64,000 nucleotides of DNA, from positions 1-64,000 of IMG/VR virus record IMGVR_UViG_3300005264_000006; one strand, 5' to 3'. Position numbers and translations under genes: made by a program. Below the pieces are notes generated by a model. That model made no database searches. It had not been told where the DNA came from and worked only from the letters and a program-made list of their open reading frames with translations. This document shows positions 9,395 through 28,542 of this stretch, one piece after another. Each line of letters begins with the position of its first letter. Position 1 is the first letter of the stretch. The stretch comes from a virus.

Positions 9395-10249
9395 ATGTTA
9401 CGGCCATTTGAATTAGTACAAAATAACATAATAAAATTTTATAGAAAAGATAAAAAAAAGAAGGTGAATGTGAATATAACCGCTAAATTTTTGATTACCA
9501 GCGAGATGAGGGTAGGTTCTCGTTGGATTCATTATTTATTACAGGACATAACTGATTACCGTGTAACTCCGGAAATAGATGTAAGATTGATTGCAGGTAC
9601 TGAAAAAACAGTTAGAAGTTATTTTAACCAAAAAAGAATTCCAAAGTATCATCACACAACCCAATTTCAAATATTAAGACATGTAAAACCCCATGATTAT
9701 AAAATAATTGGTATAGTTAGAAATCCCTTCGATAGGATTACTTCTCTTACTTTTCATCAACGGTACAAACCTCCCGGAAAAGGATTAGAAAAGATAAAAT
9801 TAGCATCAAGTGATATTGAAGCAGTGAGAACTGCTTTTTACCACGAAGACTATCGTATTGACAATGAAAGACAATTTATCTTAATGGTTCCTGGTGCTAG
9901 TACAAAACAATTTAAATCGGGGAAAACCGAAAAACGCGGAGAATTGGAACAAAATTACATATGGACAACTTATGAATGGTTAAAAGAAGACACGTTCGGA
10001 GAAATTAAAGTAATACTGGATTTCTTAGGTTTTGATTTAAAAGATACATTTATTAAAACAAAAATAAGAAAACACTCATTTAGAAATAAAAGTGGAAGGG
10101 AACCCGGTCAAGAAAAAAGAAATGATGAATGGAGAAGAAAGGGAGTTAATGATGATTGGAAGAATTTCTTTACGGAGGATATGTATAAAGATGGTATCGT
10201 CGAACAAGCAACTTATTTAATGATTAAAGAAAATGAGGAGAAAATGTGA
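9395..10249 (+). CDS. PAPS-dependent sulfotransferase
   Basis: A 284-residue sulfotransferase. The 5'-phosphosulfate-binding loop is LITSEMRVGSRWIHYLL near residues 33-49. The 3'-phosphate-binding motif is IGIVRNPFDRITSL near 105-118, with Arg109 and Ser117 in the expected R-x7-S spacing. The C-terminal cofactor loop is recognisable in RRKGVNDDWKNFFT, the usual RKGxxGDWKNxfT. No signal peptide or membrane segment is seen, so it would act in the cytoplasm. It would move a sulfuryl group from PAPS to a hydroxyl or amine, probably on a glycan. An APS kinase that makes PAPS lies 4 kb downstream on the same strand, and a second sulfotransferase lies in the glycan cluster at 27 kb. The acceptor is unknown. 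Confidence 0.85.
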   Translation: MLRPFELVQNNIIKFYRKDKKKKVNVNITAKFLITSEMRVGSRWIHYLLQDITDYRVTPEIDVRLIAGTEKTVRSYFNQKRIPKYHHTTQFQILRHVKPHDYKIIGIVRNPFDRITSLTFHQRYKPPGKGLEKIKLASSDIEAVRTAFYHEDYRIDNERQFILMVPGASTKQFKSGKTEKRGELEQNYIWTTYEWLKEDTFGEIKVILDFLGFDLKDTFIKTKIRKHSFRNKSGREPGQEKRNDEWRRKGVNDDWKNFFTEDMYKDGIVEQATYLMIKENEEKM

Positions 10250-11413
10250 ATGGAAACCGAATACAAATTTAGAGCATTACCAAAACAATCAAAAAGCAGG
10301 ATAAATACAATGTTTTATTTTTGTCCTTATCTTGCTTACTGTAACGACTATTTAGGTGAAAGAAGTGGAGAAGTCAGTGTAAGAACCGCTGTTGGTACGG
10401 ATGCACACATGATTCTTGCTGAATTTTGGAAAGTGTTTGATATAAATTATTTATATAAAGAATTTAAGGTCGACCCTAATATAGATTTAGAAAATAATCC
10501 AATAACTTATTATTTTTATGGTATTTGCATGGAACTAACTCCAAAATATGATAGGGAAGTTCAGGTATTACAGAGAATATATTGGAAATTTGCTAAACTA
10601 CAGGCAGCAAGGTTCTTAGATTTGTATCAAATGTTTAAAGGAAACAAAATAAAAGTATATAAATATTTTACACCGGAAAAAGTAGAACAATATTATTATA
10701 ATGAAGATTTAGAAATTTATGGAACTATTGATTGTGTTTATAAAATACCGAAATTAGGTGAGCAACTAACAGAAGCATTATTTATTAGCGATATAAAAAC
10801 CGGTAACATACCGGCAAGTGTCAGGAGAGGAGCTATAAAAGTTGGTGATGAGACATCGGTTAAAGTACCACCTAAGTTTATGTTTGAGATTCATTTTTAC
10901 GCACTACTATATTTAACACAACATGGTTGGTATTTTAAAGATGAAAAAGTTCGGAAATTTGTTTTGAATAATGAATATTTTGATGAAATAACAAAAACTT
11001 ACAAGAGTTTTGGATTGGGTAAAACAAAGGAAGAAGAACAAGATTTACAAAAGAAGAAGAAAAAATATATTAAAAAGATAAATCATAAGTTATATATTTA
11101 TAATTATGCTCTTGAAAAGGAAATAGAATTAAATTATGGAGATTTAATTGTTGGTTATTTGTTCTTAACAGGAGATCCAAATATTAAAGATCCGGTTGTT
11201 GTTAAAAAGAAATTTACTTATTCTTCTTTTAAAGCAGTTTTATTAAAAATTAATTTATCAAGAGCAATATGGTTTAATAAAAATAATAATGAATTTTATC
11301 TTGTTAGACTTATGAAAACAAGACCGGAATACAATAAATATAAATGCGATAATTGTAGTCGAAAAGAAAAGTGTTTATTAGAAATAGAACAAGAATTTAA
11401 AAAGAGGAAATAA
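10250..11413 (+). CDS. Cas4/RecB-like PD-(D/E)XK nuclease with Fe-S cysteines
   Basis: A 387-residue exonuclease-like protein. Four or more conserved-looking cysteines frame the domain: C25 and C31 in FYFCPYLAYC at the N-terminus, and C366, C369 and C375 in KCDNCSRKEKC at the C-terminus. This is the arrangement that binds 4Fe-4S in Cas4 and AddB-type nucleases. Between them are VGTDAHMILAEF (a helix like the RecB-family motif with His), GTIDCVYKI (motif II Asp) and FISDIKTGN (motif III D-x-K). It would cut or resect DNA during replication or recombination. No Cas1/Cas2 is nearby, so a CRISPR role is not indicated. The ATG follows the sulfotransferase stop directly. Confidence 0.82.
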   Translation: METEYKFRALPKQSKSRINTMFYFCPYLAYCNDYLGERSGEVSVRTAVGTDAHMILAEFWKVFDINYLYKEFKVDPNIDLENNPITYYFYGICMELTPKYDREVQVLQRIYWKFAKLQAARFLDLYQMFKGNKIKVYKYFTPEKVEQYYYNEDLEIYGTIDCVYKIPKLGEQLTEALFISDIKTGNIPASVRRGAIKVGDETSVKVPPKFMFEIHFYALLYLTQHGWYFKDEKVRKFVLNNEYFDEITKTYKSFGLGKTKEEEQDLQKKKKKYIKKINHKLYIYNYALEKEIELNYGDLIVGYLFLTGDPNIKDPVVVKKKFTYSSFKAVLLKINLSRAIWFNKNNNEFYLVRLMKTRPEYNKYKCDNCSRKEKCLLEIEQEFKKRK

Positions 11414-11414
11414 A

Positions 11415-11654
11415 ATGTGTTGGGAACATGAAAATGAATATTGTAATATATGTTTTGATTTTTTATGGAATGATTACGGAATATTTGATGGAGAATCTAT
11501 TGTACCTCTCTTGAGAGGTTTTAATATAGAATTTAAAAATCATAAATCAGAGACGGAATGTAAGAATAAATTTTTTGATTTCTTATCAAAATGCCATGAC
11601 GAAGGATTAATCAAACATATAATGGTACCAGAAAATTTGAATGCGGATGAATAA
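11415..11654 (+). CDS. Small Cys/acidic hypothetical protein
   Basis: A 79-residue protein just after the nuclease stop. It has C-x6-C-x2-C near its start (CWEHENEYCNIC) and two more cysteines later (TECKN and SKCHD), so a metal site is possible. The rest is predicted helix with many acidic residues. I do not recognise a family. The tight spacing suggests one operon with nuclease and primase. Confidence 0.55.
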   Translation: MCWEHENEYCNICFDFLWNDYGIFDGESIVPLLRGFNIEFKNHKSETECKNKFFDFLSKCHDEGLIKHIMVPENLNADE

Positions 11655-11657
11655 ATT

Positions 11658-12698
11658 GTGTTTATCGAAACCGGTGTTTCACATCGCAGACCATTTAGGA
11701 AAATGTTTATTTCTCAACAAGAAGCTATTAAAGATTTCAATAAGTATAAACAATTCTCGAATATTTACCATTCTATATATATGTTTAAATTAAAAGAAGA
11801 GAAATTTGATAAATACGGAAATTTCATTAGATTTGGTCCCGATTATAATACCGCTATAATCACAAAAATTAGTCTTGACTTAGATTCGTATCGAACCATG
11901 CGAGTTAATGGAGATGTTATTGAAGTATACACCGATGATGGATTAATTTCTATTAATAAATTTGCTGAATGGTGTGAAAAACATGATTATATGAGAGAAT
12001 ATGTTTTTTCTGGAGGTGGTTTTTATGGGATTATTGCTGCTAAAGGGCACCCACTAAAACTAAGAGATGGAATGTTAAAATTAGGACAAGAAGCTAGTCT
12101 TGTAATTGATCCTGCTACTGTTGGTGATACAAGCAGGATGAGAAGAGTTCTAAATTCTTATAATTTTAAAGAACATAGAAAGTGTTATTGCATACCTTTA
12201 AAAGAAGAAGAGTTATCTTTAGATTATCACCAAATAAGAAAATTAGCTCAAACACCGAGATTTAGGCAAAAATATATTTATGGAACTAAATCTTATAATT
12301 TAGAAAAATTTAAAATTGATAGTTATAAACTCACAAAAAAAGAATTATTTGTTGATATAGAGAAAAATTTAGATGCCGACAAAATTCTGGAGAAGTATGG
12401 TTGGGAAACAGACGATTTTTGTGATACGATTAAACATATTATAAGTAGAGATTATTTAGGTCATTATTTAAGATTTGAATTAATTAAATATTTAAAATCG
12501 GTTGTTAAGATGAAATTTACAGATTGTGTAAATTACATAAATGCACTGTTAGGAGCAGAAGGAAGACATTCTCTTACTGAAGGTCAAGCAAAATATGTTT
12601 ATGGAAGAAATAGGGTGTTCAATCCAACCAAATTAAAAGCATCCGGTTTATGTCCGGTTAATTGTTACAAATGTTTGCGACTTCGTGATTTAATATGA
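11658..12698 (+). CDS. Archaeo-eukaryotic primase with PriL-like cysteine C-terminus
   Basis: A 346-residue primase of the archaeo-eukaryotic (PriS/prim-pol) superfamily. The metal-binding hDhD motif is ISLDLDSYR at D74/D76. The SGGGFYGIIA motif near 118 matches the family's sGGxGxH region with His replaced by Tyr. The third acid is in LVIDPATVGD, followed by SRMRRVLNSYNF, the R-x-P-x-S-like nucleotide-binding part. The C-terminal third resembles a reduced PriL: a helical RDYLGHYLRFELIKYLK and a GLCPVNCYKC cluster (C332, C336, C339) that could hold an Fe-S or zinc site. The start is GTG at 11658. It would make RNA or DNA primers for the virus polymerase. The His-to-Tyr change is unusual. Confidence 0.78.
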   Translation: MFIETGVSHRRPFRKMFISQQEAIKDFNKYKQFSNIYHSIYMFKLKEEKFDKYGNFIRFGPDYNTAIITKISLDLDSYRTMRVNGDVIEVYTDDGLISINKFAEWCEKHDYMREYVFSGGGFYGIIAAKGHPLKLRDGMLKLGQEASLVIDPATVGDTSRMRRVLNSYNFKEHRKCYCIPLKEEELSLDYHQIRKLAQTPRFRQKYIYGTKSYNLEKFKIDSYKLTKKELFVDIEKNLDADKILEKYGWETDDFCDTIKHIISRDYLGHYLRFELIKYLKSVVKMKFTDCVNYINALLGAEGRHSLTEGQAKYVYGRNRVFNPTKLKASGLCPVNCYKCLRLRDLI

Positions 12699-12745
12699 CT
12701 TTATTCTAAACGAAAAAAAAATAATAGAGGAATTAATAGCTCCAA

Positions 12746-13975
12746 ATGAAATTAACTGAAATAATTCAGGTAAAAAAATCAAAAGAATTATCAAAAGCAT
12801 GCCATTTAGCTAAGAACCTTTATAATTTGGCTAATTGGTATTTTAGACAGGATTTCTTTAATTTAAATAATTTTTTATCGTATTATGATTTAGATTTTAT
12901 TTTAAAAGACAAGGAAGCCTATAAAAATTTACCTTCTCAAACAGCCCAACAAATTTTAAAGTTAGTTATTAAGAATTGGAAATCGTATTTTAGAGCATTA
13001 AAAGAATATAAACGAGATTTCAAGAAATTTAAAGGAAAACCGAAGATTCCAAGATACAAGAAGAAAAACGGAGAATCAATCATTATTTTTACAAATCAGC
13101 AATGTAAAATTAAAGAAGGCTATTTACATTTTCCAAAAAAGAGTAATCTCGACTCTATTAAAACCAGAATTATAGATGTATTAAATCAAGTAAGAATAAT
13201 TCCTTTAGGTGTAAAATATAAAGTTGAAATTGTGTACGAGAAAGAAGCAACCGACTTAGAATTAGATAAAGAGCACGTTTTAGGTATTGATTTAGGGTTA
13301 AATAATCTCATAACTGCTGTAAATAATAATGGATGTAAACCATTTATTGTTAAAGGTGGGATGATTAAATCTATAAACCAATACTATAATAAACAGTTAG
13401 CATATTTTAGAAGCATTGAAAATAAGAAGGGCAATTTTATTGATACTAAAAGAATTCAAAAACTACATTTAACTCGAAATAATAAGATCAATACATTATT
13501 TCACCGAATCTCTAAGAACGTAATTGAATATTGTATTCAAAATAATATTGGAACAATAGTAATTGGATATAATCGAGGTTGGAAACAGAAAATCAATATA
13601 GGAAAAAGGAACAATCAGAATTTTGTAAACATCCCTTTTAATCAACTCTTAAAACAAATAAAATATAAAGCTCAATTAAAAGGAATCCAATTTTTAACTG
13701 TTAACGAAGCCTATACTTCAAAATGTAGTTTTTTGGATAATGAACTAATTGGGCACCATGATAAATATTTAGGAAAAAGGATCCATAGAGGATTGTTTAG
13801 AACGTTCAACGGAAGGTTTCTTAACGCTGACGTGAATGGTGCCTTTAACATAATGAAAAAAGCATTCCCAAATTCCGTTTCGGTTGATGGGATAGAGGCA
13901 TTCGGACTAATGCCACAAATACTTCAACAAAACATCGTTGATAATAGTATTTGCAATAAGATGAGCACAGTTTAA
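12746..13975 (+). CDS. tnpB: Lone TnpB (IS605 OrfB-like RNA-guided nuclease family)
   Basis: A 409-residue TnpB. RuvC-I is GIDLGLNN with Asp182. The usual RuvC-II Glu site reads VIGYNRGWKQ, with no Glu. The best acid is Glu321 in VNEAYTSKCSF, matching the known TnpB group with a relocated catalytic Glu. RuvC-III is NADVNGAFNI with Asp362. The zinc finger is reduced to one Cys in TSKCS, as is common in that group. The N-terminal half is basic and helical. No TnpA transposase is present, so this is an isolated, IS1341-like element. It interrupts the replication operon between the primase and APS kinase genes. Function could be transposon maintenance or viral reuse as an RNA-guided nuclease. Confidence 0.9.
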   Translation: MKLTEIIQVKKSKELSKACHLAKNLYNLANWYFRQDFFNLNNFLSYYDLDFILKDKEAYKNLPSQTAQQILKLVIKNWKSYFRALKEYKRDFKKFKGKPKIPRYKKKNGESIIIFTNQQCKIKEGYLHFPKKSNLDSIKTRIIDVLNQVRIIPLGVKYKVEIVYEKEATDLELDKEHVLGIDLGLNNLITAVNNNGCKPFIVKGGMIKSINQYYNKQLAYFRSIENKKGNFIDTKRIQKLHLTRNNKINTLFHRISKNVIEYCIQNNIGTIVIGYNRGWKQKINIGKRNNQNFVNIPFNQLLKQIKYKAQLKGIQFLTVNEAYTSKCSFLDNELIGHHDKYLGKRIHRGLFRTFNGRFLNADVNGAFNIMKKAFPNSVSVDGIEAFGLMPQILQQNIVDNSICNKMSTV

Positions 13976-14064
13976 CTCGTTTTAGTAGTCTGAGGATGGT
14001 AAGCATGAATTGATTTCAATTACAGTTGTTATAGATAAAAAAAGAAGTAGAGGAGGAGAATTTT
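13976..14064 (+). ncRNA. Candidate omegaRNA 3' region / right end of the TnpB element
   Basis: In IS200/IS605-type elements the guide RNA overlaps the 3' end of tnpB and the right end. This 89-base non-coding stretch directly follows the tnpB stop. It contains a small perfect hairpin AATTG-ATTT-CAATT at 14008-14021, like a subterminal right-end hairpin. The element boundary, and hence the guide, cannot be fixed from sequence alone. Its last bases (AGAGGAGGAGAA) are the ribosome-binding site of the APS kinase gene. Confidence 0.35.
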
Positions 14065-14622
14065 ATGGTTAAAGCAACATGTATTTGGTTTTTTGGTTTA
14101 TCCGGTGCGGGAAAAACGACTATTGCGAATAAATTGCGGGATAAATTCTTGGTTAGAGGTTTAAAAGTTCAGAGATTAGATGGTGATGTTGTAAGAAAAA
14201 TCTTAACAAAAGATTTAGGATTTTCTATGGAAGATAGGTTTGAACATATTAGGAGAGTTGTTTTTGTAGCAAAATTGTTAATGAAAAATGGAATAAATGT
14301 TGTAGCTTCATTTATAACACCCTTAAAATCCATGAGGTATTATATAAAACAAGAATTAGGAGAAAAGTGTTTACTTATTGAATGTCGTTGTGGTTTGCAA
14401 ACTTGTATTGAAAGAGATGTAAAAGGATTGTATGCAAAAGCATTAAATGGAATCATAAAGGATTTTACCGGTTTAACACAACCTTATGAAAGGGGAGGAA
14501 ATGAAGTTTTTTGGGTTTTAAATACGGAGGATTTTGAACCAAAAGAATCATTAAAAAATTTAGTAGAAAAGTTTAAATGTTTTAAAGTATTTGAACGCTT
14601 GATGAAAGATAATGAAACATGA
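14065..14622 (+). CDS. cysC: Adenylylsulfate (APS) kinase
   Basis: A complete 185-residue APS kinase, which phosphorylates APS with ATP to give PAPS. The P-loop is GLSGAGKTT at residues 11-19, and the LDGDVVRKIL segment (39-46) carries the Asp that binds APS. FSMEDRFEHIRR matches the family's F-S-x-x-D-R-x-x-N-I-R-R with Asn replaced by His. KGLYAKA (120-126) and FTGLTQPYE (134-142) form the mobile lid and substrate site. A strong AGAGGAGG site precedes the ATG. No ATP sulfurylase is in the window, so APS would have to come from the host or from a gene elsewhere. With the two sulfotransferases here it makes a PAPS-using pathway likely. Confidence 0.93.
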   Translation: MVKATCIWFFGLSGAGKTTIANKLRDKFLVRGLKVQRLDGDVVRKILTKDLGFSMEDRFEHIRRVVFVAKLLMKNGINVVASFITPLKSMRYYIKQELGEKCLLIECRCGLQTCIERDVKGLYAKALNGIIKDFTGLTQPYERGGNEVFWVLNTEDFEPKESLKNLVEKFKCFKVFERLMKDNET

Positions 14623-14642: not shown

Positions 14643-15317
14643 GTGTTAAAAATTATAGTTATTGATGTTGGTGAACCACCAAAAGTATTTGAAATGTTTG
14701 AAAAAAAAGGAATACCCTATATTAGAGCAGAAATAAAAATGTTTTATTGTGCTAAATGCGAAAAAATTTACATCCAACAACCTGAAGTTTGTGAATGGCT
14801 CGACAAATCTTTACATGCTCAAGCAGCTAAAATGGCTAAATATTATTCCGGTTGGAAATTTGTATTTCTTGAAGGATTTATTTCAGTTATGGTAGATGAT
14901 CCTCATCATAAAAGAAGTATAAAAGCTTGGATAAGGTCAATGAGAGTAACATTAAGAAAATATGATGTATGTATGTGGCAATGTGATGACTTAAGTCAGT
15001 TAGTTGATGAGGTTTTTAGAGTTGAACAGAAGTCCGGAGAACAACCCAAAATATATGATAAAATAGATGATAAATATAAAGGATGGTCGGATTCTAAAAA
15101 GTTTATTTGTAAATTAATTGACGTATCAGATAAGAAAGCTGATATACTATTAGAAGAATTTAAACATCCTGTAGGAATTATAGAAGCTATATTATCAAGT
15201 GGAGTGACATTCACTAAAACCGGTAATCCAAAAGGAGTTGTTGGTCCTTTAGAAAGTGTGAAGGGGTTTGGTCCTAAATTTATAATTAAAAATAAGAAGA
15301 TGTTATATGAAAAATGA
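14643..15317 (+). CDS. ERCC4/XPF-like protein with HhH end, catalytic motif degenerate
   Basis: A 224-residue protein resembling archaeal XPF/Mus81 nucleases. It opens with a strand IIVIDVGEPP (family: IIVDxRE), then VCEWLDKSLHAQAAKMAKYY and KFVFLEG, matching the D-x-x-x-S-l-x-x-x-Q-x-x-R...LLvEG part of the ERCC4 domain. The ERK triplet that binds metal is not seen: the place reads IYIQQPEVCEWLD. A CxxC (YCAKCEK) sits just before it. The C-terminus has a helix-hairpin-helix-like GPLESVKGFGPKF. GTG at 14643 is the only standard start, but AGAGGTG lies so that ATT at 14652 is better spaced. It may be a structure-specific DNA binder rather than an active nuclease. Confidence 0.62.
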   Translation: MLKIIVIDVGEPPKVFEMFEKKGIPYIRAEIKMFYCAKCEKIYIQQPEVCEWLDKSLHAQAAKMAKYYSGWKFVFLEGFISVMVDDPHHKRSIKAWIRSMRVTLRKYDVCMWQCDDLSQLVDEVFRVEQKSGEQPKIYDKIDDKYKGWSDSKKFICKLIDVSDKKADILLEEFKHPVGIIEAILSSGVTFTKTGNPKGVVGPLESVKGFGPKFIIKNKKMLYEK

Positions 15318-15513
15318 AGAAACATTAGAAAAAATAGAGGAAATTTTATATTATTGGCTTATGGATATTAATGCTGGAGATAGAGATGAATATGTTATTG
15401 GTGATATGTTTATATATGAAATTATACATAAATTTTTTCCGGATTTAGTTAAAGAATTAAAAAAAATTAAAAAAAATCCACCGATGAGAGTAAATTACTT
15501 TGGAAAACATTAG
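15307..15513 (+). CDS. Small hypothetical protein
   Basis: A 68-residue mostly helical protein, acidic at the N-terminus and basic at the C-terminus (KELKKIKKNPP). It overlaps the ERCC4-like gene by 11 bases and the helicase gene by 14 bases, which fits translational coupling. No family recognised; perhaps a helicase or nuclease partner. Confidence 0.5.
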   Translation: MKNEETLEKIEEILYYWLMDINAGDRDEYVIGDMFIYEIIHKFFPDLVKELKKIKKNPPMRVNYFGKH

Positions 15514-18660: not shown

Positions 18661-19920
18661 ATGTTAATAGATAAAATAAAGAATAGAATAGTATGCCTGT
18701 CGCAGGACCCAAAGACGATATTCAGTTATGGTTTACAAGTATTGGAACTTATTAAGGGATTACCAAAACATCAATTCCATGTTATAAGTTCTCAATACCA
18801 ATATGGAAGACCGTATGAAGATAAAAATTATTCTTATGTAACTTGGGCAAATGAGGGAGATCAAGCAAGAACAACATCAACACTTAAAAAGGTTATTGAG
18901 TACACATATCCTATTTGTGTTTTTTCTATGGGTGATATACATCATCATCCCGGTGTTAATATTGGTAAACCTCTTCAAGTTCCATGGGTTTCTTGGTTTC
19001 CATGGGATAATCACGATGTACCTGCGATGTTAAGAGCACAACAAGCTATAATGGCACCCGATATAAAAGTTACAATGAATAAATTTTCATTTGACTTGAT
19101 GAATCAATACAATCTACAAGTTGATGAATGGATTTATAATATTGTTAATACTCAAGTATTTCGACCGTTAAATAAAGAAGAATTTGATAAACAACAAACG
19201 ATTAAACAAAATCCAAACATTCAAGGAAAGAAAATTCTATTATTCGTTGGAAGACCATCTTGGAGAAAAAATTTAGAATTTCTTATGGGTGCATTTAAAG
19301 AATTATGTAGAAGAAGAGATGATGTAATGCTTTATTTACATGTTGATTTTGAAGATCAAGGAATACCGGATAAACCTGACTTAAATAAGTTAATTCACGG
19401 TTTAGGTCTAAAAGAAAAAATGTTGTCAACCGAACAAAATAGATGGACAACCGGAGTAGATTCATTTTTTCTTAATAGGCTCTACAACTTTTGTGACTTA
19501 TATGTTTCTCCTCACGGTGGAGAAGGTTTTGGTTTACCTGTTTGTGAAGCAATGGCAACAGGAACTCCGTTTGTTGCTACCGATTGTACTTCCATGCCGG
19601 AATTTGCAGGTAATGATGAACGGGGTCTTCTTGCTAAAGTAGAAAAAAATATAAGAGAAAAGGGAGTTTTGAGACCTTGGGTTGATGTAAAAGATTTTGT
19701 TAATAAAATAGATTGGTTACTTGATAATGATGATGTAAGAAAAAGAATGGGAGAAAATGGAATGAAGTGGGTTAAAAAGAATTGTTCACATAATGTAATA
19801 GTTCCGCAATGGAGAAAAGTATTTACAAGGTTGGATATACCATTTTGCAGTATCGATAAAAGAAAAACCGAACTTGAGTGGTCAGAAAGATATGCACATG
19901 CTGAGGTGATGGAACAATGA
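18661..19920 (+). CDS. GT4-like glycosyltransferase
   Basis: A 419-residue GT-B glycosyltransferase. The C-terminal donor-binding half is clear: KILLFVGRPSWRKNLEFLM (strand and K of the family's GRxxxxKg), then SPHGGEGFGLPVCEAMATGTPFVA, the classic E-x7-E of GT4 (Glu in GEGFG and Glu in CEAMA). The N-terminal half has the expected strands and GDIHHHPGVN. It has no signal or membrane segment. A TATA box lies just upstream, and a second GT4 gene follows in an ATGA overlap. It probably adds a sugar to a glycan carried by the virion or host surface. Confidence 0.88.
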   Translation: MLIDKIKNRIVCLSQDPKTIFSYGLQVLELIKGLPKHQFHVISSQYQYGRPYEDKNYSYVTWANEGDQARTTSTLKKVIEYTYPICVFSMGDIHHHPGVNIGKPLQVPWVSWFPWDNHDVPAMLRAQQAIMAPDIKVTMNKFSFDLMNQYNLQVDEWIYNIVNTQVFRPLNKEEFDKQQTIKQNPNIQGKKILLFVGRPSWRKNLEFLMGAFKELCRRRDDVMLYLHVDFEDQGIPDKPDLNKLIHGLGLKEKMLSTEQNRWTTGVDSFFLNRLYNFCDLYVSPHGGEGFGLPVCEAMATGTPFVATDCTSMPEFAGNDERGLLAKVEKNIREKGVLRPWVDVKDFVNKIDWLLDNDDVRKRMGENGMKWVKKNCSHNVIVPQWRKVFTRLDIPFCSIDKRKTELEWSERYAHAEVMEQ

Positions 19921-21015
19921 TTGATATAACTTGGCTTAATAACTTCGGTCCCAATGGATATATTAATAGGTTAAACCTATAATACCATAAATGGTATTTG
20001 TGGCAGAGGTTATGTTAAAATTCTTCAAGAACTCGGTTATAATGTAAAGATATATCCTTATCCTTATATGAATGAAAACGACGAATTGTTTCCTTTAACA
20101 AAAACTAAAGTAGAAAATCCTTTAGACGTGTATCATGCGATTCCAACAGTTTTAAAAGAAGCATTCTATACTGTGACCGAAGTTAGAAATCCACCTGACT
20201 TCATGGCTTACCCGTTAAAAAAAGCAAAAATTATTTTGACACAATCTAAATTTTGTAAAGAGTCGTTTAGTAAGGTTACCGACCCTAAGAAAATACATGT
20301 AATTAATTTTCCGTTTTTTAAAGGTCAGTTTGAACCTGTTGGTCCACAATATAAGTTACACATAAAAAAGAAACATAAGTTTAAATTTTTTAGTGTAGCA
20401 AGAGTAGATGTAAGAAAGAACGTAGATACATTAATGAGAGCATTTGCTGAAGTATTTGGTGATAATGAAGATGTTTGTTTAATAATGAAATTAGGAAGTG
20501 ATAGATATTGCATTCCTAAAATGTTTTACGAATTAAATCTTCCTAAAAACATATATTGGATGACAGAATATGTTGAAGACACATCAATGCTTTATAGAGC
20601 AATGGATGCTTATGTTACCGCAGATTGTGGAGAAGGATGGGGAGCTCCAACCACTGAAGCTTTGTTATGTGGGATTCCAACAATAGCTCCCAGACATTCC
20701 GGTCATCTTGATTATATGAATGACGATAATTCTTTCTTAGTAGATGTTGGTGACTGGGAATATATCGGTTATAGAAAAGATAATCTTTATCCGGATTTGT
20801 TAGCACCGCAATTAGAGTGGAAAAGACCAAAAATTGAGTCATTAAAAGAACAGATGTGGGATTGCTATCAAAAATTTAAAGATAGGAGTAGAGAATCGAT
20901 ATTAGAAGATCCTCTCATTAAGAATGGATTAGAAGTAAATAAAATAGTGAACAAGGAATATATAGGAGAACAATTAAAACAAGCTTTTTCGTGGTACGAA
21001 ACTGAATACAGGTGA
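19917..21015 (+). CDS. GT4-like glycosyltransferase with an internal frame break near codon 19
   Basis: The conserved part runs from 20068 to 21015 and has KFKFFSVARVDVRKNVDTLM and ADCGEGWGAPTTEALLCGIPTIAP, the E-x7-E donor site of GT4 enzymes. The region upstream of ATG 20068 also reads as this protein (INGICGRGYVKILQELGYN), back to 19975. A good start, ATG at 19917 in an ATGA overlap with the previous gene, gives MIDITWLNNFGPNGYINR, typical for the family's N-terminus, but its frame stops at 19980-19982. Skipping one base within TTAAACC at 19971-19977 joins both into about 365 residues. It may be a frame-shifted gene, a sequencing error at the A-run, or programmed +1 shifting. Starting at 20068 would lose part of the acceptor domain. 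Confidence 0.75.
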
Positions 21016-21165: not shown

Positions 21166-23277
21166 ATGCCGAGAGAAAAAATAAGATTAACACAGGAACA
21201 GATAGATGATGCCAAAGCTCAATATAAAACTTACACTGCTCAAGCAAAATATTTAGGAGTAAGTGATGATGTTTATAGGCGTGAAAGAAAACGACTATTA
21301 AGGAGGAAGAGCTTTGATGATAAAGTAAAATATTTAACAGAAAGAGATCCAAAATTAGAATTAACAAAAAAAAGAACGATAGAAGCTCTAAAAAAGGAGT
21401 GCGAAAGTGTTTACGAAAGATCAAGAAAAACAATAGGATATAATGAAGTTACTTTTGATCTAGGAGACGATGATTGTGCTGTTAAATTAGATTGTGATTG
21501 GCATATCGGTAATGAGATGACAAACTTACCAAGGTGGGCAGAAGACATAGAAATTACAATTAAAACACCTAGGCTGTTTACAATATTAAATGGAGATTAT
21601 ACTGATAATTTAGATGCAATTAGTAAAGGATACGAATCCTTAATAACTGTGCCAGAAGCCAAAAATAAAGTTAAGGATGCTGTTATGATGATGGGTAGGA
21701 AAGTTCTTGGAACAATTCAGGGTTGTTTCTTAGAAGGAACACCAGTTGTAGCAGATGATTATACAATGAAACCAATTGAAACAATTGAAAAAGTACTTGG
21801 TAGTGATAAAACATACAATGTAAAAAAACACTGGAACGATAATTATACAAAAGATGGAATATACAAAATTTCTTATATGGGTAATACAGTGTATAGCATT
21901 CATGCGACAGCAGATCACCCATTTTATGGAATAAAACGAAAAAATTTAATTTGTCCTTATAGAAAAAACAATAGATTTTGTAAAGGCATTAACTCAAGAA
22001 ATAGTGCATATTGTAAAAAATATTGTAAAGAAAAACCAAACATGGATTTAGACGTAATACTATCGGAAAATTTAGAAATAGGAGATTTCTTATATATTCC
22101 AAAACCAAAAGATCCAAGAGGAAATAAGTTTACAATGGAAGATATGGAGATTTTTGGGTGGTATTTGGTAGAAGGCTCGTTGACCGTGACAAAAAATGTA
22201 GTTTTTAGTTTTGGAATAAAAGATTTAAAATATGCTAAAAGAATAAAAAAATTAATAAAAAAAGGTCATTCAAATAAAATTTCTTCTATTTCACTTAAAA
22301 AAAGAAAAAACAAAAATGTATATACCTTATATGTCGGTGGAAGAGATTTTGCAAATTGGATTTATAAATATTGTGGAAGACATTCACATTCTAAAAAATT
22401 GCATATAGATGTAATCAATGAATCTAACGAAAAATTAGCTAAACTTGTTGATTGTTTTAGATTAGGAAATGGTCACACTAGAGATAACAATGGTTTAGAT
22501 ATAACTTTGACAACAATTTCAGAAGATTTAGCTTGGCAATTGTGGAATATTCTTCTTAGAATCGGAGAATTTGCTTCAATAAGAAAACAAGATAGATCAA
22601 AAATGTCCAAAAATTATAAGATAAATGGACATGTTGTAAAACACAACTATGATTTTTTTGCTATAAATTATAGACCACATAGAAAACAGTTTAAATTCTG
22701 TGAAACGGAAAAGGGATATTTTGTTCCAATAACAAAAATAGAATTTGAAGAGTATGAAGGAAATGTTAAAAATTTAACAGTAAATTCAATTGAACATTTA
22801 ATTAGACCTTGTGGTGTGATAGTCAGCCAATGCCACGATGAGTGGTTCTTCAAACAAGATTCATGGGACATTTCTCAATATTTAGCCGATCATTCTGATG
22901 GATATTGGCTTGGTTTTAGAGGTAAATTAAATCTAAAAGTAGGTGAACAAACATATAAAATCTACACGAGACATAAGTATAGAAGACATTCAACCGATAA
23001 TTTAACATGGGGCATGTTATACAAGTTTAGAAAGTTAAAAGAACCTGTTGATATTATGATGAGCGGTCATCACCATCAACCGACCATAAGAGTAGCTCAC
23101 GATAGAGGTCAAATAGTTTATTTAGCAATGGGTGGTTCTTATAAACCGTATGATAGGTTCATAGAACATAGAGACATAGATGAAGGCGTGGCTTTAATGC
23201 CCGCTTTCTACTTACGTTCTGACAAGCACGATATAACCCCATTTATAGATTTCAGATCAATATCTGATTATCTATAA
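21166..23277 (+). CDS. Calcineurin-like metallophosphoesterase, interrupted by an intein
   Basis: A 703-codon gene; the spliced product would be about 334 residues. The metal-binding motifs of the family are in order: LDCDWHIGN (D-x-H), LNGDYTDN (G-D-x-x-D), GCHDEW made by splicing (the GNH[D/E] box), a late His in YTRHKYRRH, and SGHHHQP (G-H-x-H). The box has Cys where Asn is usual; this Cys is also the intein's +1 nucleophile. The N-terminal 70 residues look like a helix-turn-helix (LTQEQIDDAKAQYKTYTAQAKYLGVS). Substrate unknown: DNA ends, cyclic nucleotides or phosphates are all possible. A GAGG site precedes the ATG. Confidence 0.83.
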   Translation: MPREKIRLTQEQIDDAKAQYKTYTAQAKYLGVSDDVYRRERKRLLRRKSFDDKVKYLTERDPKLELTKKRTIEALKKECESVYERSRKTIGYNEVTFDLGDDDCAVKLDCDWHIGNEMTNLPRWAEDIEITIKTPRLFTILNGDYTDNLDAISKGYESLITVPEAKNKVKDAVMMMGRKVLGTIQGCFLEGTPVVADDYTMKPIETIEKVLGSDKTYNVKKHWNDNYTKDGIYKISYMGNTVYSIHATADHPFYGIKRKNLICPYRKNNRFCKGINSRNSAYCKKYCKEKPNMDLDVILSENLEIGDFLYIPKPKDPRGNKFTMEDMEIFGWYLVEGSLTVTKNVVFSFGIKDLKYAKRIKKLIKKGHSNKISSISLKKRKNKNVYTLYVGGRDFANWIYKYCGRHSHSKKLHIDVINESNEKLAKLVDCFRLGNGHTRDNNGLDITLTTISEDLAWQLWNILLRIGEFASIRKQDRSKMSKNYKINGHVVKHNYDFFAINYRPHRKQFKFCETEKGYFVPITKIEFEEYEGNVKNLTVNSIEHLIRPCGVIVSQCHDEWFFKQDSWDISQYLADHSDGYWLGFRGKLNLKVGEQTYKIYTRHKYRRHSTDNLTWGMLYKFRKLKEPVDIMMSGHHHQPTIRVAHDRGQIVYLAMGGSYKPYDRFIEHRDIDEGVALMPAFYLRSDKHDITPFIDFRSISDYL
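21724..22830 (+). other. Intein in the GNHD box of the metallophosphoesterase
   Basis: In-frame intein of about 369 residues, starting Cys in CFLEGTPVVADDYTM and ending Ser-Gln before the +1 Cys of CHDEW. A C-terminal Gln in place of Asn is a known but minority form that splices more slowly. Block B is ATADHPFYGI. LAGLIDADG-like stretches are FGWYLVEGS (Glu kept) and LVDCFRLGNG (Asn in the acidic place). A four-Cys stretch from CPYRKNNRFCKG to YCKKYC could bind zinc. Confidence 0.9.
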
Positions 23278-23405: not shown

Positions 23406-23406
23406 A

Positions 23407-23673: not shown

Positions 23674-23702
23674 CTACTTCCAAAATCAACAAAAACTATC
23701 AT

Positions 23703-23737
23703 TATTTTCTTTTTTTTAATCTTTTTTTATTTTTTAA
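23703..23737 (+). terminator. T-rich terminator of the rightward block
   Basis: Three close T-runs, of eight, seven and six T, with no hairpin in front, follow the last rightward gene. This is the form of archaeal intrinsic terminators. Confidence 0.5.
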
Positions 23738-23912
23738 TAAAAAATACTATTAAAAATTTTAACGAGCTGGACTTGTTTTAAAATATAGCTATTAGAAGAA
23801 GTTCTATATTATAAAAATATGATAGTTTGGGGATAAAAAAATCATCTTTTTCAAACGGGCTAGCTGAAAATGATATAAGAGATATAACTTTTTCTTCTAA
23901 AAACTATATTAA

Positions 23913-23934
23913 ATCTCTTAATAGAATAAGAGAT
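23913..23934 (-). terminator. Hairpin at the end of the leftward block
   Basis: A perfect 8-bp stem ATCTCTTA/TAAGAGAT with a 6-base loop lies right after the stop at 23938. On the - strand it is followed by TTTAATATAGTTTTT, so it could end leftward transcripts. Confidence 0.5.
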
Positions 23935-23937
23935 GAG

Positions 23938-24492
23938 CTATTCATACCACCAAAAATTATCTTCATACCTAACAATTCTGTTATAGATGGTAGATAATTT
24001 ATCAATTGCTTTTTTTACTGTTGGCTTGTCATAGTCATCACCGCAAATCATACTTCCAACAGGATACCATGCTTTTATATCTTTTAAAACAGATAAGTAA
24101 TCATGTCTTGCGTCAATATAAATTAAGTCAGTTTTAATTCCCAATTTCTGAAATATAATTCCAACATCCGAGGAGTCGCCTTTAATGGGAATTATTTTAT
24201 CTTGAAGGTTGCTTCTTATTACATTCGATATGAATTGTTTTTGCGGAAACATGCAACCTCTTAAATTCATCGACCAATTATCAACAGCAAAAACCTTTTC
24301 TATTTCATTTTTTCTTGCTAAATGACAAGCGGTAAATCCTACAAAAGTTCCGACCTCCACGATTTTATGAATTGCCCCCGATGAAACTAACCCGTCAAAT
24401 ATATCATTATGATGCGAGAAGTTAACATCATACCAATTTAATTTTTCAGGTGCTTTCTTTGGATATGTTATTATGCTTAATTTTTTTGTCAT
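23938..24492 (-). CDS. Class I SAM-dependent methyltransferase (TylF/CmcI-like, Methyltransf_24)
   Basis: A 184-residue Rossmann methyltransferase. Motif I is KIVEVGTFVGFTACHLA near residue 40 (E-x-G-x-x-x-G), motif II is VFAVDNWS, and a later acidic motif is TDLIYIDARHDYLSVLKDI followed by GSMICGDDYD, a metal-binding D-x...DD pattern as in macrocin O-methyltransferase-like enzymes. It overlaps the radical SAM gene by 47 bases. In a cluster of glycosyltransferases its likely role is O-methylation of a sugar. It is the last gene of the leftward transcript. Confidence 0.8.
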   Translation of the reverse strand: MTKKLSIITYPKKAPEKLNWYDVNFSHHNDIFDGLVSSGAIHKIVEVGTFVGFTACHLARKNEIEKVFAVDNWSMNLRGCMFPQKQFISNVIRSNLQDKIIPIKGDSSDVGIIFQKLGIKTDLIYIDARHDYLSVLKDIKAWYPVGSMICGDDYDKPTVKKAIDKLSTIYNRIVRYEDNFWWYE

Positions 24493-25174
24493 GTTTTTTA
24501 TTCCACTTTCCCATTATTACATTAGCTTTGAAACAATGTTGACATGCTTTCCATACCGGTAAATTTCTCCAATCTTTTTTCCAATTAGGTGACATTTCAA
24601 CGTGAACCGAACTATTAAGAAATTCTCTTTCTACACCCTCTGATAGACAACATCTATATAAATTTTTACCGACAATTCTTACTTGGTGAAAACATTTTTT
24701 TTCTACCGCCATTGCCTTTTTTACACTTAAATTGGGATCGATATTTATATCCCACCAACCACCCCATCTGGAAATTCTTACATTTTTTACCTTACTAAAT
24801 TTTTGTATTACTTCATCATTCCAACCGGGATATTCTGAAATTCTCCAGGTCCAATCAAAAAATGTATCGTGATTAACATACGGTAATAATCTTCCATTTG
24901 TTGAAATTACTCTTCTATTTCTTGGCACGCGTTTAAATTTTAATTTAATCATATTAAGAATTTCATCTAAATTAGGATGACAAAGAGGTTCACCTCCTAT
25001 AATAAGAATGTCTTTTATATCTTCCGGTTTAAAACATTTTAATATATCGTACATCTCTTTTTGGGTTACAAATTTAAAATCACTTGTAGAAATTCTATGA
25101 CTACAATTCTTACACATTTTATCGCAAAGATGGGTTATTTCAAATTCGGCTTTAGTTATCGGTATTATTCCCAC
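24446..25174 (-). CDS. Radical SAM enzyme of the glycan cluster
   Basis: A 242-residue radical SAM protein. The cluster motif is C17-x3-C21-x2-C24 in LCDKMCKNCSH. The GGEP motif, which binds the AdoMet amino group, is in LIIGGEPLCHPN. Later cysteines (KKCFHQ, YRCCLS, KACQHCF) suggest an extra Fe-S or metal site in a SPASM-like end. Enzymes of this layout often modify sugars, peptides or antibiotics. The place between a methyltransferase and a glycosyltransferase suggests a sugar-related substrate. The start is GTG at 25174; the GAGGTGGG before it overlaps the start, so ATA codons just downstream are possible. Confidence 0.82.
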   Translation of the reverse strand: MGIIPITKAEFEITHLCDKMCKNCSHRISTSDFKFVTQKEMYDILKCFKPEDIKDILIIGGEPLCHPNLDEILNMIKLKFKRVPRNRRVISTNGRLLPYVNHDTFFDWTWRISEYPGWNDEVIQKFSKVKNVRISRWGGWWDINIDPNLSVKKAMAVEKKCFHQVRIVGKNLYRCCLSEGVEREFLNSSVHVEMSPNWKKDWRNLPVWKACQHCFKANVIMGKWNKKHDKKIKHNNISKEST

Positions 25175-25266
25175 CTCAACTGTCTACTTTTTTCATATCT
25201 TTCAATTTTTTTCTTCCACTTTTTTGGTCTATTTGCGTATAAAAAAAATATTCCACCTGTAATCAT
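25165..25266 (-). CDS. Small basic peptide of 33 residues
   Basis: An ORF too short for routine calling fills the gap between the GT2-like and radical SAM genes. It starts in an ATGA overlap with the glycosyltransferase stop and ends 10 bases inside the next gene. It is hydrophobic at first (GGIFFLYANR), then basic (KKWKKKIERYEKSR). This could be a membrane-tethering peptide or a fragment of a larger gene. Confidence 0.4.
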   Translation of the reverse strand: MITGGIFFLYANRPKKWKKKIERYEKSRQLRWE

Positions 25267-26018
25267 ACACCGGCTCCTGTTGACATTATAATTTTCTTAA
25301 AATTTCTTGTAATTTCGGCTTTAGTATGACGACTTTTATTGGATTTAAACATATCAATTCCATAATGATCCAGTTTTGTTCTCTTTGATTTTACCGGTAC
25401 CACCCATCGAGCAACATTATTTTCTGCTAAAATCAGGTTAAACCAAAACTCATCATCGTATGGAACTCCGTATTCGTCATATTGTTGCCAATTAAATATT
25501 TCTTCCGTAAAATATTTTGGCTTTATAAGACAACAATAACCTGTGGAAATAATATCACAACGAACAGGTTTTGATAAACCGTCACCATGAAACCATTTTT
25601 TAACCCAACTATTTGGATTATCGTTTACATAAAAATTTCCGGCAGTTGCAATTACTCCGTCTAATTTTTTTTCCCATCTCAATAATGTTTGTATTGTTTC
25701 ATCATGCCAGATATGATCATCATCGGTAAGAATAATGATTTGTTCCGGTTCATTCCAGTATTTTCTTAGTATAGGCATGAATTTTCTAAGTGCTCCTGTA
25801 TTCGGAACGAAATGAATTTTAGTTCTAAGACAATTAATGGTTGGTTTTTTATCAAATCCTTCGTCAAGATAAAACGGTTCCTTGCTTATGTAGACATGTA
25901 TTTCATCCGGTTTTTTTGTTTGGTTATTTAAATTTCTAATTATTTTGCCCAAATTTTTTTCTCTTGCTTTAACTAATGCAAAAGAAACAACAACTTTTCT
26001 ATTTCCAGTATTGCTCAT
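25263..26018 (-). CDS. GT2-like glycosyltransferase (GT-A fold)
   Basis: A 251-residue protein with a GT-A look: VVVSFALVKAREKNLGKIIRNLNNQT at the N-terminus (family: rxxxLxxxlxSlxxQ), a strand with HVYISKEP, and the metal-binding acid run IIILTDDDHIW near residue 95. GALRKFMPIL and DEYGVPYDDEFWFNLIL come later, the latter perhaps carrying the catalytic base. No membrane helices. It would transfer one sugar from a nucleotide donor. It overlaps the epimerase gene by 20 bases. Confidence 0.72.
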   Translation of the reverse strand: MSNTGNRKVVVSFALVKAREKNLGKIIRNLNNQTKKPDEIHVYISKEPFYLDEGFDKKPTINCLRTKIHFVPNTGALRKFMPILRKYWNEPEQIIILTDDDHIWHDETIQTLLRWEKKLDGVIATAGNFYVNDNPNSWVKKWFHGDGLSKPVRCDIISTGYCCLIKPKYFTEEIFNWQQYDEYGVPYDDEFWFNLILAENNVARWVVPVKSKRTKLDHYGIDMFKSNKSRHTKAEITRNFKKIIMSTGAGV

Positions 26019-27018
26019 TTTCTTTAACCCATTTTAAAAGTCTTTTAACTCCTTCATATGGGGAAACTTCCGGTTCCCATTGCAACCTTTTACATACATT
26101 TCTAATGTCAGAAATATATACATGTTGATCAAAAGGTCTAACCTTATCAAATTTTAATTTTATTGTTTTATTCATTTCTCTTCCTAGAAAAACTAACAAT
26201 TCAAGTAAAGACATTGTATTATTAATTCCTCCACCCATTTGCATTACATTTATTCCCGTTATTTTTTTAGTGGCAAAAATTTTCATTGCATTAACTAAAT
26301 CATCTATATATAATAAATCTCTTCTCTGATTACCATCACCAAAAATTGTTACAGGTTTATCCAAATAGGTTGTTATTACAAAATGTGCAACCCAACCTTG
26401 ATCTTCTACACCAAATTGTCTCGTTCCGTATATACAAGACATTCTAAGAACTAATACATCAAAACCAAATGAGAAACCATATTCTTGAATATAATGATCG
26501 GCACATAATTTAGAACAACCATATGGTGAATGACCTGTTAAATCAGTTGGTCCTAATGCTTCTCCCTTTGATGAAACTCTCTCACCAAAAACCTTGTTTG
26601 TTGAGGTAAATATAATAGCGGGTCTTAAATTGGCTTGTCTTGCTGATTCTAATATATTCATTGTTCCTAAAGTATTTGTTCTAAAATCTTCATAAGGTTC
26701 ATCCATTGAAGTTGTTACCGCCGTTTGACCGGCACAATGAACAATAACATCCGGCATGTATTTCATTACACTAAAACAATCATTAAAATTTCTTACATCG
26801 CCAACGACAAAGGTAATTTCATCGTATTGTTCTAAATATTTCTTGTTAATTTCACTACCCGATCTTGACATGTTATCAAATACAATTACTTCCTTACCTA
26901 ATCTTGCAAATTCTTCGGCGACATGAGAACCGATAAAACCGCAACCTCCCGTTACTAAAATCACTCCGCATTCCCTATCCGGAATTGGTTCCCTATATTT
27001 ATGAAATTCATTTGTCAT
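25999..27018 (-). CDS. NAD-dependent sugar epimerase, CDP-paratose/tyvelose 2-epimerase-like
   Basis: A 339-residue extended short-chain dehydrogenase. The NAD site is VTGGCGFIGSHVAEE (GxxGxxG), the catalytic Tyr-Lys is in SPYGCSKLCAD (Y-x3-K), and TSTNKVFG precedes it. The stretch SCIYGTRQFG with EDQGWVAHF, then GDGNQRRDLLYIDD, is characteristic of CDP-tyvelose (paratose) 2-epimerases (RfbE-like), more so than of UDP-glucose 4-epimerase. It would invert the sugar at C2 of a nucleotide-activated hexose. The deoxyhexose pathway genes that normally precede it are not in the window, so the precursor must come from the host or the substrate differs. Confidence 0.85.
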   Translation of the reverse strand: MTNEFHKYREPIPDRECGVILVTGGCGFIGSHVAEEFARLGKEVIVFDNMSRSGSEINKKYLEQYDEITFVVGDVRNFNDCFSVMKYMPDVIVHCAGQTAVTTSMDEPYEDFRTNTLGTMNILESARQANLRPAIIFTSTNKVFGERVSSKGEALGPTDLTGHSPYGCSKLCADHYIQEYGFSFGFDVLVLRMSCIYGTRQFGVEDQGWVAHFVITTYLDKPVTIFGDGNQRRDLLYIDDLVNAMKIFATKKITGINVMQMGGGINNTMSLLELLVFLGREMNKTIKLKFDKVRPFDQHVYISDIRNVCKRLQWEPEVSPYEGVKRLLKWVKENEQYWK

Positions 27019-27575
27019 TATTTATTTCTCCTATTATGTTTATGTGGAAATTTTTCATTTAATATTTTTAAATTTAAGAAAGGGCATAGCTTTTCATAAC
27101 CATCCCCTTCTAATATGTTCATAACCAGTAAATCTTCCGGTCTATTTTTAAAGTATTGAAACACTTTATCGTGATAAGTAAGAAAACCTTCTTTATACTT
27201 TTCTCTATTAAACCATTTAGAACCATAAAGTATTTCTCTTATATATATTTGTTGGAATGTTAATTTTCCATCCTTTTGTTTTGCTTTTCCAAAAAACCAC
27301 TTAGCAGATTTAAGCCAATCGTTTAAATTTCTCGTGGTTAATATAAATTTAGAATTAGGATAATGCTTGTCAAGTTTTATATAGTTAATAGAAACAGGTG
27401 TATCAGAAATTGCATCATTCTTATCAACAACACTCCATAAGTTGGCTAATTTAGGATAATGGACGGACGTGAAACCTAATTTCTTTAGTGCTTCGTGCAC
27501 GGAGAGAGTACCTGTTCTTGATAATCCTATACAAAATATTTTGTTAAAATCCTTCGAATTCATAATCTTTATCAT
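27018..27575 (-). CDS. Second sulfotransferase (Sulfotransfer_4-like)
   Basis: A 185-residue protein with sulfotransferase signatures. The phosphosulfate loop is IFCIGLSRTGTLSVHEALKK (R-T-G-T form), and the 3'-phosphate motif is FILTTRNLNDWLKSAKWF. It ends with a basic tail (PHKHNRRNK). This resembles the short sulfotransferase group that lacks the RKGxxGDW end, unlike the one at 9395, so the two probably act on different acceptors. The real start may be the second Met at 27563. It sits between the epimerase and a glycosyltransferase, which points to a glycan acceptor. Confidence 0.8.
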   Translation of the reverse strand: MIKIMNSKDFNKIFCIGLSRTGTLSVHEALKKLGFTSVHYPKLANLWSVVDKNDAISDTPVSINYIKLDKHYPNSKFILTTRNLNDWLKSAKWFFGKAKQKDGKLTFQQIYIREILYGSKWFNREKYKEGFLTYHDKVFQYFKNRPEDLLVMNILEGDGYEKLCPFLNLKILNEKFPHKHNRRNK

Positions 27576-28542
27576 CTAAAATTAAATCCGTTGCTTTATT
27601 TAATTCTCTTTTAAAAACTTGAGGACTTGCTTTTTCTCTTGCTCTTATTTTATATTTATTTACCAGTTTTGGACTCCATTTTTCTATTGTTTTAACACAA
27701 AAATCATAGGCATTATTTACATCATAATTTGAAACGTCATATGTTAAATCCGGAAATAATTGTTCCATTGCTCCGTAAGTGTGGGTACCTATACAAATAC
27801 AATTATTAAAAAGAGCTTCATAAATTACTCTTCCATAAGTCCATCTAAAAGCAAAATCAATCATTATTTTAGATTTAGAAGCAATTTTATGAAACTTCTT
27901 TTGACCATCAAGATTCTTTTTGTTTAATGTTGTATTGAAACCGCATTTATTATTATATTGTCTTGCATAAGAACAATCAATTAATATTCCATGAACATTA
28001 TAACCAGCAGATTTTAACATCTCTCCTAAATACAAAGTTTTTGTATAATTGTAGAAAAGTCTATCGTCCATCATTAATAAGAAATCAATAGGTTTTTCAC
28101 CCATTGGTTTCTCATATTTCTTATCGTATAAAACTTGAGGAACTTTATTCACATGATAAGGAAAGAAATTATAATTCATTGGCATTTCCCATAAAAAGTT
28201 CTTACATAAATCACTCATCATTTTATAATGAGAAAAGGGTGTTCTGTCCGGATTATTGTCATAATGAGGCATGTTAGTTGCTCCGGTTCCACACGCAAAT
28301 TTAAGCCAGGTTATATTTGTATTTTTTATAATTTTTTTATAGAAAGGTTTGTATATTTTAAGTCCTCTATCTGACATATGAAAAATGAGGTTTTTATCCT
28401 TCCAAAATTTTATTGGCTTAGATTGTGCTTGTTTATAAGTAAGTCTTTTTGCATCTAAAACTTCCGGAAAAATGTTTGAAGGAAAAAATACATCGGGCAC
28501 TCTACTTGCGTGTAGAGTGACAACAAACCATTTACGAGTCAT
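27544..28542 (-). CDS. GT-B-like glycosyltransferase
   Basis: A 332-residue protein that looks like a GT-B glycosyltransferase of no clear family. The C-terminal half has PIDFLLMMDDRLF, a second Rossmann-like strand pattern, and RWTYGRVIYEALFNNCICIGTHTYGAMEQLF, which resembles the donor-binding helix with Glu (YEALFNN) of GT-B enzymes. The N-terminal half has IFHMSDRG and Trp/Tyr-rich segments. The gene overlaps its neighbours by 32 and 11 bases. Function is inferred from shape and the surrounding glycan genes. Confidence 0.6.
   Translation of the reverse strand: MTRKWFVVTLHASRVPDVFFPSNIFPEVLDAKRLTYKQAQSKPIKFWKDKNLIFHMSDRGLKIYKPFYKKIIKNTNITWLKFACGTGATNMPHYDNNPDRTPFSHYKMMSDLCKNFLWEMPMNYNFFPYHVNKVPQVLYDKKYEKPMGEKPIDFLLMMDDRLFYNYTKTLYLGEMLKSAGYNVHGILIDCSYARQYNNKCGFNTTLNKKNLDGQKKFHKIASKSKIMIDFAFRWTYGRVIYEALFNNCICIGTHTYGAMEQLFPDLTYDVSNYDVNNAYDFCVKTIEKWSPKLVNKYKIRAREKASPQVFKRELNKATDLILDDKDYEFEGF

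Follow-up and report, generated by a model that had tools for sequence, protein, structure and literature searches.

An APS kinase, two sulfotransferases and an exchangeable glycan cassette in a tailed virus: a probable virus-encoded sulfo-glycan kit

Introduction

Large cyanophages carry gene sets for glycans or lipopolysaccharide (LPS). Giant viruses (nucleocytoplasmic large DNA viruses, NCLDV) glycosylate autonomously with their own nucleotide-sugar enzymes and glycosyltransferases (PMC4691112). The DNA described here, referred to as the window, comprises 64,000 nucleotides (positions 1 to 64,000) of IMG/VR virus record IMGVR_UViG_3300005264_000006, and resembles both groups in encoding nucleotide-sugar enzymes and glycosyltransferases. 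It differs from them in also encoding an adenosine 5'-phosphosulfate (APS) kinase, predicted to make the sulfate donor 3'-phosphoadenosine 5'-phosphosulfate (PAPS), together with two different sulfotransferases, ST1 and ST2 (two or three sulfotransferases across its lineages), and in belonging to a group of tailed viruses with archaeal-type replication genes.

Some marine phages, for example OM43 phages and Synechococcus phage S-SRM01, carry one sulfotransferase gene each, with a function described as unclear. Like ST1 and ST2 such genes are virus-encoded and of PAPS type, but they belong to another Pfam family, Sulfotransfer_3, and neither a donor-making kinase nor a conserved glycan operon is reported with them in the available part of that source (PMC10580990). 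A search of 50,697 phage records gave no match to ST1 or ST2. Virus-encoded APS kinases (cysC) are also on record and are read there as part of assimilatory sulfate reduction (PMC9789665), whereas the kinase of the window is paired with sulfotransferases at conserved positions. Among cells, Archaea sulfate N-glycans with dedicated enzymes: Agl30 and Agl31 of the Halobacterium salinarum N-glycan parallel ST1 and ST2 as two enzymes sulfating the sugars of an archaeal glycan, but they are cellular and annotated as alkaline-phosphatase-domain proteins, not SULT-type enzymes (PMC11980604). Kunpengvirus of Bathyarchaeia is a tailed archaeal virus with its family B polymerase and exonuclease as separate genes, a split that the window virus shares (exonuclease 45-1172, polymerase 1327-3954, both on the early strand and assigned by Pfam); unlike the window virus, Kunpengvirus is credited with neither a sulfotransferase nor an APS kinase in the text of its description (PMC10848311). 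One of the main papers on Asgard viruses makes no mention of such genes.

Results and Discussion

The record and its relatives

The window takes in almost all of its record, which is 65,830 bases (65.8 kb) long and may be incomplete. Judged by its gene content, which includes terminase, baseplate wedge, tape measure and portal, the virus is a tailed virus. Its record (G000) was compared with other viral contigs (G001-G007). Four related lineages are represented: G001 (IMGVR 3300027917_002335), G002/G004, G005/G006 and G007, where each pair is one virus in two records. G003 (IMGVR 3300028815_000025) stands outside these lineages as an otherwise different tailed virus with an ST1 homologue. The same four lineages emerged from a search for relatives that used the primase-like gene and so took no account of the sulfation genes; all of them have ST1. 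The features discussed are collected in Table 1; every gene named in the earlier note on this DNA was found at the position given there.

Table 1. Features of the window, with strand and the basis of each assignment
Feature	Coordinates	Strand	Basis
ST1, PAPS-dependent sulfotransferase, Sulfotransfer_1/SULT type	9395..10249	+	Pfam, PDB, AlphaFold model, motifs
TnpB (IS200/605-type) element, host clue	12744..13991	+	Pfam; inserted between primase-like gene and APS kinase
APS kinase (CysC), predicted APS to PAPS	14065..14622	+	Pfam PF01583, TIGR00455, PDB
Glycosyltransferase family 4 (GT4) gene a, core gene	18661..19920	+	PF00534 1.5e-25, phrog_2170 7.5e-39
GT4 gene b, core gene	20068..21015	+	PF00534 1e-14
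Swappable island	23919..28613	.	DNA alignment to G001
Class I methyltransferase (Methyltransf_24)	23938..24492	-	PF13578, 9.2e-11
Radical S-adenosylmethionine (SAM) enzyme	24446..25174	-	Pfam, 6.1e-9
Glycosyltransferase family 2 (GT2)-like gene	25263..26018	-	PF00535 7.8e-5, weak, slightly below cut-off
Nucleotide-sugar short-chain dehydrogenase/reductase (SDR) enzyme, CDP-tyvelose 2-epimerase-like	25999..27018	-	PF01370 1.5e-51, PDB
ST2, Sulfotransfer_4-type sulfotransferase	27018..27575	-	PF17784, PDB
Protein 27544, perhaps GT-B glycosyltransferase	27544..28542	-	no family match
Tail-fibre-like gene adjoining island	29199..30905	-	position at end of tail genes

The APS kinase

The kinase matches PF01583 with an E value of 1.4e-46, scores 166.6 bits against the cut-off of 138.7 for the NCBI equivalog TIGR00455 (apsK), and aligns over its length with solved APS kinases in the PDB (E 4.8e-41). 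Its P-loop GLSGAGKTT (GxxxxGK[ST]) and the motifs LDGD, KGLY and FTGLTQPYE are all present, and are kept in G001, in agreement with the earlier note on this DNA, which had called the gene intact. Membership of the CysC family rests on the curated score, and phosphorylation of the 3'-hydroxyl of APS is predicted from it. A kinase is found in three of the four related lineages (G001, G005/G006 and G007), and there, as in the window, it is always located with the primase-like gene on one side and an XPF-like nuclease on the other. All four viral kinases fall in a single clade (Shimodaira-Hasegawa approximate likelihood ratio test, SH-aLRT, 98), to which the kinase of a metagenome-assembled genome (MAG) labelled Bathyarchaeota is nearest (SH-aLRT 86). 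The ratio of nonsynonymous to synonymous substitution (dN/dS) between G000 and G001 is 0.185 for the kinase and 0.21 for ST1, against 0.07-0.09 for core genes; by this measure both are under purifying selection and evolve somewhat faster than the core. Inactivating mutations, which the earlier note named as evidence that would count against its reading, are seen in none of ST1, the kinase and ST2.

That note had also proposed a search for an ATP sulfurylase. None of the Sat type was found in the record, nor any other sulfate-assimilation enzyme among the scanned proteins (no search was aimed at a PAP, 3'-phosphoadenosine 5'-phosphate, phosphatase); APS must therefore come from the host.

ST1 and its neighbours

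ST1 matches PF00685 (E 1.6e-16, 60.9 bits against a gathering cut-off of 22) and, in the PDB, the SULT enzymes. Its AlphaFold model has a predicted local distance difference test (pLDDT) score of 80.6, and the folds closest to it are PAP-bound SULT7A1 and then other SULTs (E 2.9e-7 and a template modelling (TM) score of about 0.55-0.6 against PAP-bound SULTs). Lack of a PAPS pocket had been named beforehand as an outcome speaking against the sulfation reading; the model instead predicts a SULT fold with a pocket for PAP(S). The three cofactor motifs sought, namely the 5'-phosphosulfate loop, the 3'-phosphate site (RxxxxxxxS) and RKGxxxD, are represented by R39-V-G-S, R109...S117 and R248-K-G...D254, and are invariant in all seven viral sequences, which bears out the earlier description of ST1 as having all three. 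His86, likewise invariant in the seven, is probably the catalytic base. The first ~30 residues probably lie outside the true protein, since relatives have later starts.

ST1 is present in 4/4 related lineages. In G007 it adjoins a GT2 gene and two methyltransferases, and in G006 an FkbM gene. In G003 the cluster that holds it also contains NeuB, a cytidylyltransferase (CTP transferase), FkbM and a capsule-type, sulfotransferase-like NKWYS gene. Such company of ST1 in three viruses is, by association, the main ground for taking a glycan as the acceptor of sulfate. The G003 group (NeuB, cytidylyltransferase, FkbM, ST1, NKWYS) has the form of a nonulosonate-type cassette and stands directly upstream of the G003 terminase.

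Two GT4 genes accompany ST1 and the kinase on the early (replication) strand, as conserved core genes apart from the swappable cassette. Gene a is 88% identical to its counterpart in G001 and 62-67% identical to those of other lineages. The earlier statement that two GT4 genes lie at 18.7-21.0 kb holds for both as regards family, while the second proved to be interrupted at its N-terminal end (see below). The cassette with ST2 ends the late (structural) strand. This division, with ST1, the kinase and the GT4 genes on one strand and the cassette on the other, suggests that two stages may be served.

ST2 and the exchangeable cassette

ST2 belongs to a family distinct from that of ST1, as had been noted: it matches PF17784 (E 2.9e-29, 102.9 bits against a gathering cut-off of 22.8) and schistosome sulfotransferases of known structure (2e-16 to PDB 5tiz). 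Its phosphosulfate-binding motifs GLSRTGT and TTRNLNDWLKS are largely conserved, and it is 63% identical to the protein of G004 and 45% to that of G001. Of the cluster described around it by the earlier note, the epimerase, methyltransferase and radical SAM enzyme stand, the GT2-like assignment is weak, and the GT-B-like label of protein 27544 is unproven, since that protein has no Pfam or PDB sequence match and a poor structure model (pLDDT 48.7), too poor for a fold search. The epimerase label was apt: the best PDB matches are 9rl0 (1.9e-72) and 1orr (1.1e-70), with the next at 2.4e-36. As no partners of a CDP (cytidine diphosphate)-sugar pathway, that is a CDP-glucose dehydratase or synthase, occur within the cassette of the window, the enzyme is described only as most like CDP-tyvelose 2-epimerase.

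At the DNA level the window aligns with G001, its nearest relative, up to position 23918 and again from 28614 (77-78% identity), with nothing shared between. In place of the island G001 has ~7 kb of unrelated genes, encoding a nucleoside triphosphate (NTP) transferase, a dTDP (deoxythymidine diphosphate)-glucose dehydratase-like enzyme, a GT4, a methyltransferase, a radical SAM/SPASM enzyme and a Sulfotransfer_4 protein, as well as two genes that look GT2-like by eye and have no Pfam match. G004, a more distant virus, retains all six genes of the window cassette, at identities (methyltransferase 46%, epimerase 50%, radical SAM enzyme 55%, protein 27544 59%, GT2-like 60%, ST2 63%) similar to those of its core genes. 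For this reason the window cassette is, on sequence comparison, probably the older state and that of G001 a replacement. The tail-fibre-like gene that adjoins the island is variable, with only short stretches conserved in relatives, and has no family match. Placement of the cassette beside it favours a function on the virion or fibre.

Away from its cassette, G001 encodes one more sulfotransferase, its third, of the Sulfotransfer_1 family. At about 17-18 kb in the same contig a 316-residue protein of Cys-rich repeats adjoins two small Cys-cluster (CxxCGxCC) proteins, and is also near the third sulfotransferase and a SPASM-type-looking fragment (by eye, no Pfam match). It is possibly a modified structural protein, or one resembling ribosomally synthesized and post-translationally modified peptides (RiPPs).

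The probable host

An archaeal host had been no more than implied in the earlier note. The clue to the host comes from the TnpB element, whose site is empty in G001. Within the one archaeal class used for comparison (83 genomes), namely that of the genome with the nearest APS kinase, it is 79-80% identical in DNA to resident copies; 47 of the genomes give matches, many with several copies. Actins were found in 12/12 tested genomes of this class, nearly all at ~440 bits, and were not seen in archaeal control genomes. Such actins are a mark of Asgard archaea, and it is only through them that these genomes are identified as Asgard. Because of the actins, the label of the MAG Candidatus Bathyarchaeota Bin_245 (G008; Asgard-type actins, 442 bits) is doubtful and probably wrong. 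When a single 20-kb stretch of the window was compared with the 83 genomes in search of CRISPR (clustered regularly interspaced short palindromic repeats) spacers, all matches were short and most were of low complexity; the best, of 30 bases, lies outside any repeat array. The primase-like gene, used to look for proviruses among GTDB contigs, had no match there. With no CRISPR or provirus link, and with a TnpB comparison confined to one class, an Asgard archaeon is favoured as host with no great assurance.

Homologues of Sulfotransfer_4 are encoded in 8/83 genomes of the likely host class. Asgard-like genomes also encode a protein of 458-470 amino acids, with a Sulfotransfer_4-like part and a remainder that is GT2-like by eye, which adjoins a second sulfotransferase-like gene; the two may form a conserved pair for sulfation in cells. 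Should the host be an Asgard archaeon, the S-layer that the earlier note took as a potential target is not to be taken for granted.

A sulfo-glycan kit

Enzyme families, intact motifs, co-occurrence, conservation and the cassette swap are read directly from the sequences. The flow of PAPS, the glycan acceptor, the surface location and the early and late timing may be deduced from them, and the most satisfactory explanation is that the virus probably encodes a kit for sulfated glycans, with PAPS made by a viral enzyme and sulfate moved to surface sugars. Host ATP sulfurylase would supply APS, which the viral kinase would phosphorylate to PAPS, and ST1 and ST2 would transfer sulfate from PAPS to sugars whose building or editing would fall to the core GT4 pair together with the glycosyltransferases, epimerase, methyltransferase and radical SAM enzyme of the cassette. 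The product would be a sulfated glycan on virion proteins, on the host surface, or on both, and exchange of the cassette would alter its structure, as serotype cassettes do. The earlier idea of PAPS synthesis coupled to sulfotransferases in a glycan-building context is strengthened by the ST1 operons and by the Sulfotransfer_4 cassette of G001.

Several observations weigh against such a kit. There is no known acceptor for sulfate, and protein 27544 stays without assignment. N-glycosylation sequons in the structural proteins are mostly near expectation (best z 2.5); N-glycosylation of the virion, examined by way of a general sequon excess, is thus unsupported. A short insertion and a frameshift break the N-terminal end of the GT4 gene at 20068 in this record; the break could be real or an assembly fault, and relatives have longer, intact copies. 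In the kinase, the Asn of the (E)NIRR motif is replaced by His in G000, G001 and G006, while it is retained in G007 and in cellular relatives with a recognisable motif; this Asn, on the substrate side, is typical of APS kinases. Lastly, G002/G004 has small open reading frames in place of the kinase, yet keeps ST1 and ST2, and G006 and G007 are without the ST2 cassette at that site. Kinase, ST1 and cassette are therefore not obligatorily coupled, and viral synthesis of PAPS is an aid, not a necessity, since one lineage does without it. Nor does it follow, as had been supposed, that the host is short of PAPS, given a lineage with both sulfotransferases and no kinase; with no ATP sulfurylase found in the record, the virus depends on the APS of its host.

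The alternative that survives best is a narrower form of the same proposal, in which the enzymes act solely on the infected host surface, excluding other viruses or changing the receptor, and the virion is undecorated. The early-strand position of ST1, kinase and GT4 genes would suit it, as would the lack of sequon excess in virion proteins, and host sulfated glycans are plausible targets because the likely host class encodes Sulfotransfer_4 homologues. Against this stands the swappable cassette, whose place on the late strand by the tail fibre is what a role on the virion or fibre would lead one to expect; the narrower form is a serious possibility, short of an even chance.

It is unlikely that the kinase serves sulfur assimilation in the usual way of an auxiliary gene, supplying PAPS for reduction to sulfite and unrelated to the sulfotransferases. 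That role has its precedent in a listing that places cysC among viral auxiliary metabolic genes for assimilatory sulfate reduction (PMC9789665), and the uncoupling in G002/G004 fits it, but neither PAPS reductase nor ATP sulfurylase was found in the record and every kinase-bearing lineage also has ST1. Action of the kinase on another nucleotide, with a modification such as phosphoramidate in place of sulfate, is more improbable still. Cj1415 resembles APS kinases. Its role in the Campylobacter capsule, where it is a cytidine diphosphoramidate kinase that with Cj1416-1418 makes CDP-phosphoramidate 3'-phosphate, is a precedent (PMC11800397), and the Asn to His change would agree with it; the kinase nonetheless scores above the apsK equivalog cut-off, G007 keeps the Asn, the accompanying sulfotransferases have intact PAPS motifs, and no phosphoramidate-pathway partner was noticed. 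Least credible is modification of viral DNA by ST1 and the GT4 pair (a glycosylated, sulfated base, not a surface glycan), which the location of these genes among DNA methyltransferase, nuclease, primase-like and helicase genes might suggest, but ST1 has glycan-type neighbours in three other viruses, as set out above, and no base-hydroxylating or hydroxymethylating enzyme, the support that DNA hypermodification would need, was found among the scanned proteins.

Other features of the early strand

Sequence inspection suggests a primase-like gene (no Pfam match, no PDB sequence match) and an XPF-like nuclease (no Pfam match) on the early strand. The nuclease, at 14643-15317, is without ~30 residues, among them an ERKxxxD motif, that are present in the G001 and G002 proteins; the gap could be real, leaving the enzyme inactive in the window virus, or an assembly fault. 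Inteins are seen in the DNA polymerase (1327-3954), the helicase (15500-18214) and a third protein (21166-23277). G001 has neither the helicase intein nor that of the third protein, and in G002 and G007 the polymerase is shorter than the intein-bearing one of the window.

Significance

The sulfotransferases of phages have had no known function, and APS kinases are as a rule assigned to sulfur assimilation. A clade that pairs the two gives them a testable role: the kinase, the sulfotransferases and the exchanged cassettes point to viral sulfation of surface sugars, the sulfo-glycan kit proposed above. More tentatively, and with the odds somewhat against so complete a picture, a clade of Asgard tailed viruses may keep a PAPS supply and a core sulfotransferase while swapping sugar-and-sulfation cassettes by the tail fibre, and so vary a sulfated virion or cell coat in the manner of serotypes. 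If the host is indeed an Asgard archaeon, these viruses would open the little-known surface chemistry of Asgard archaea.

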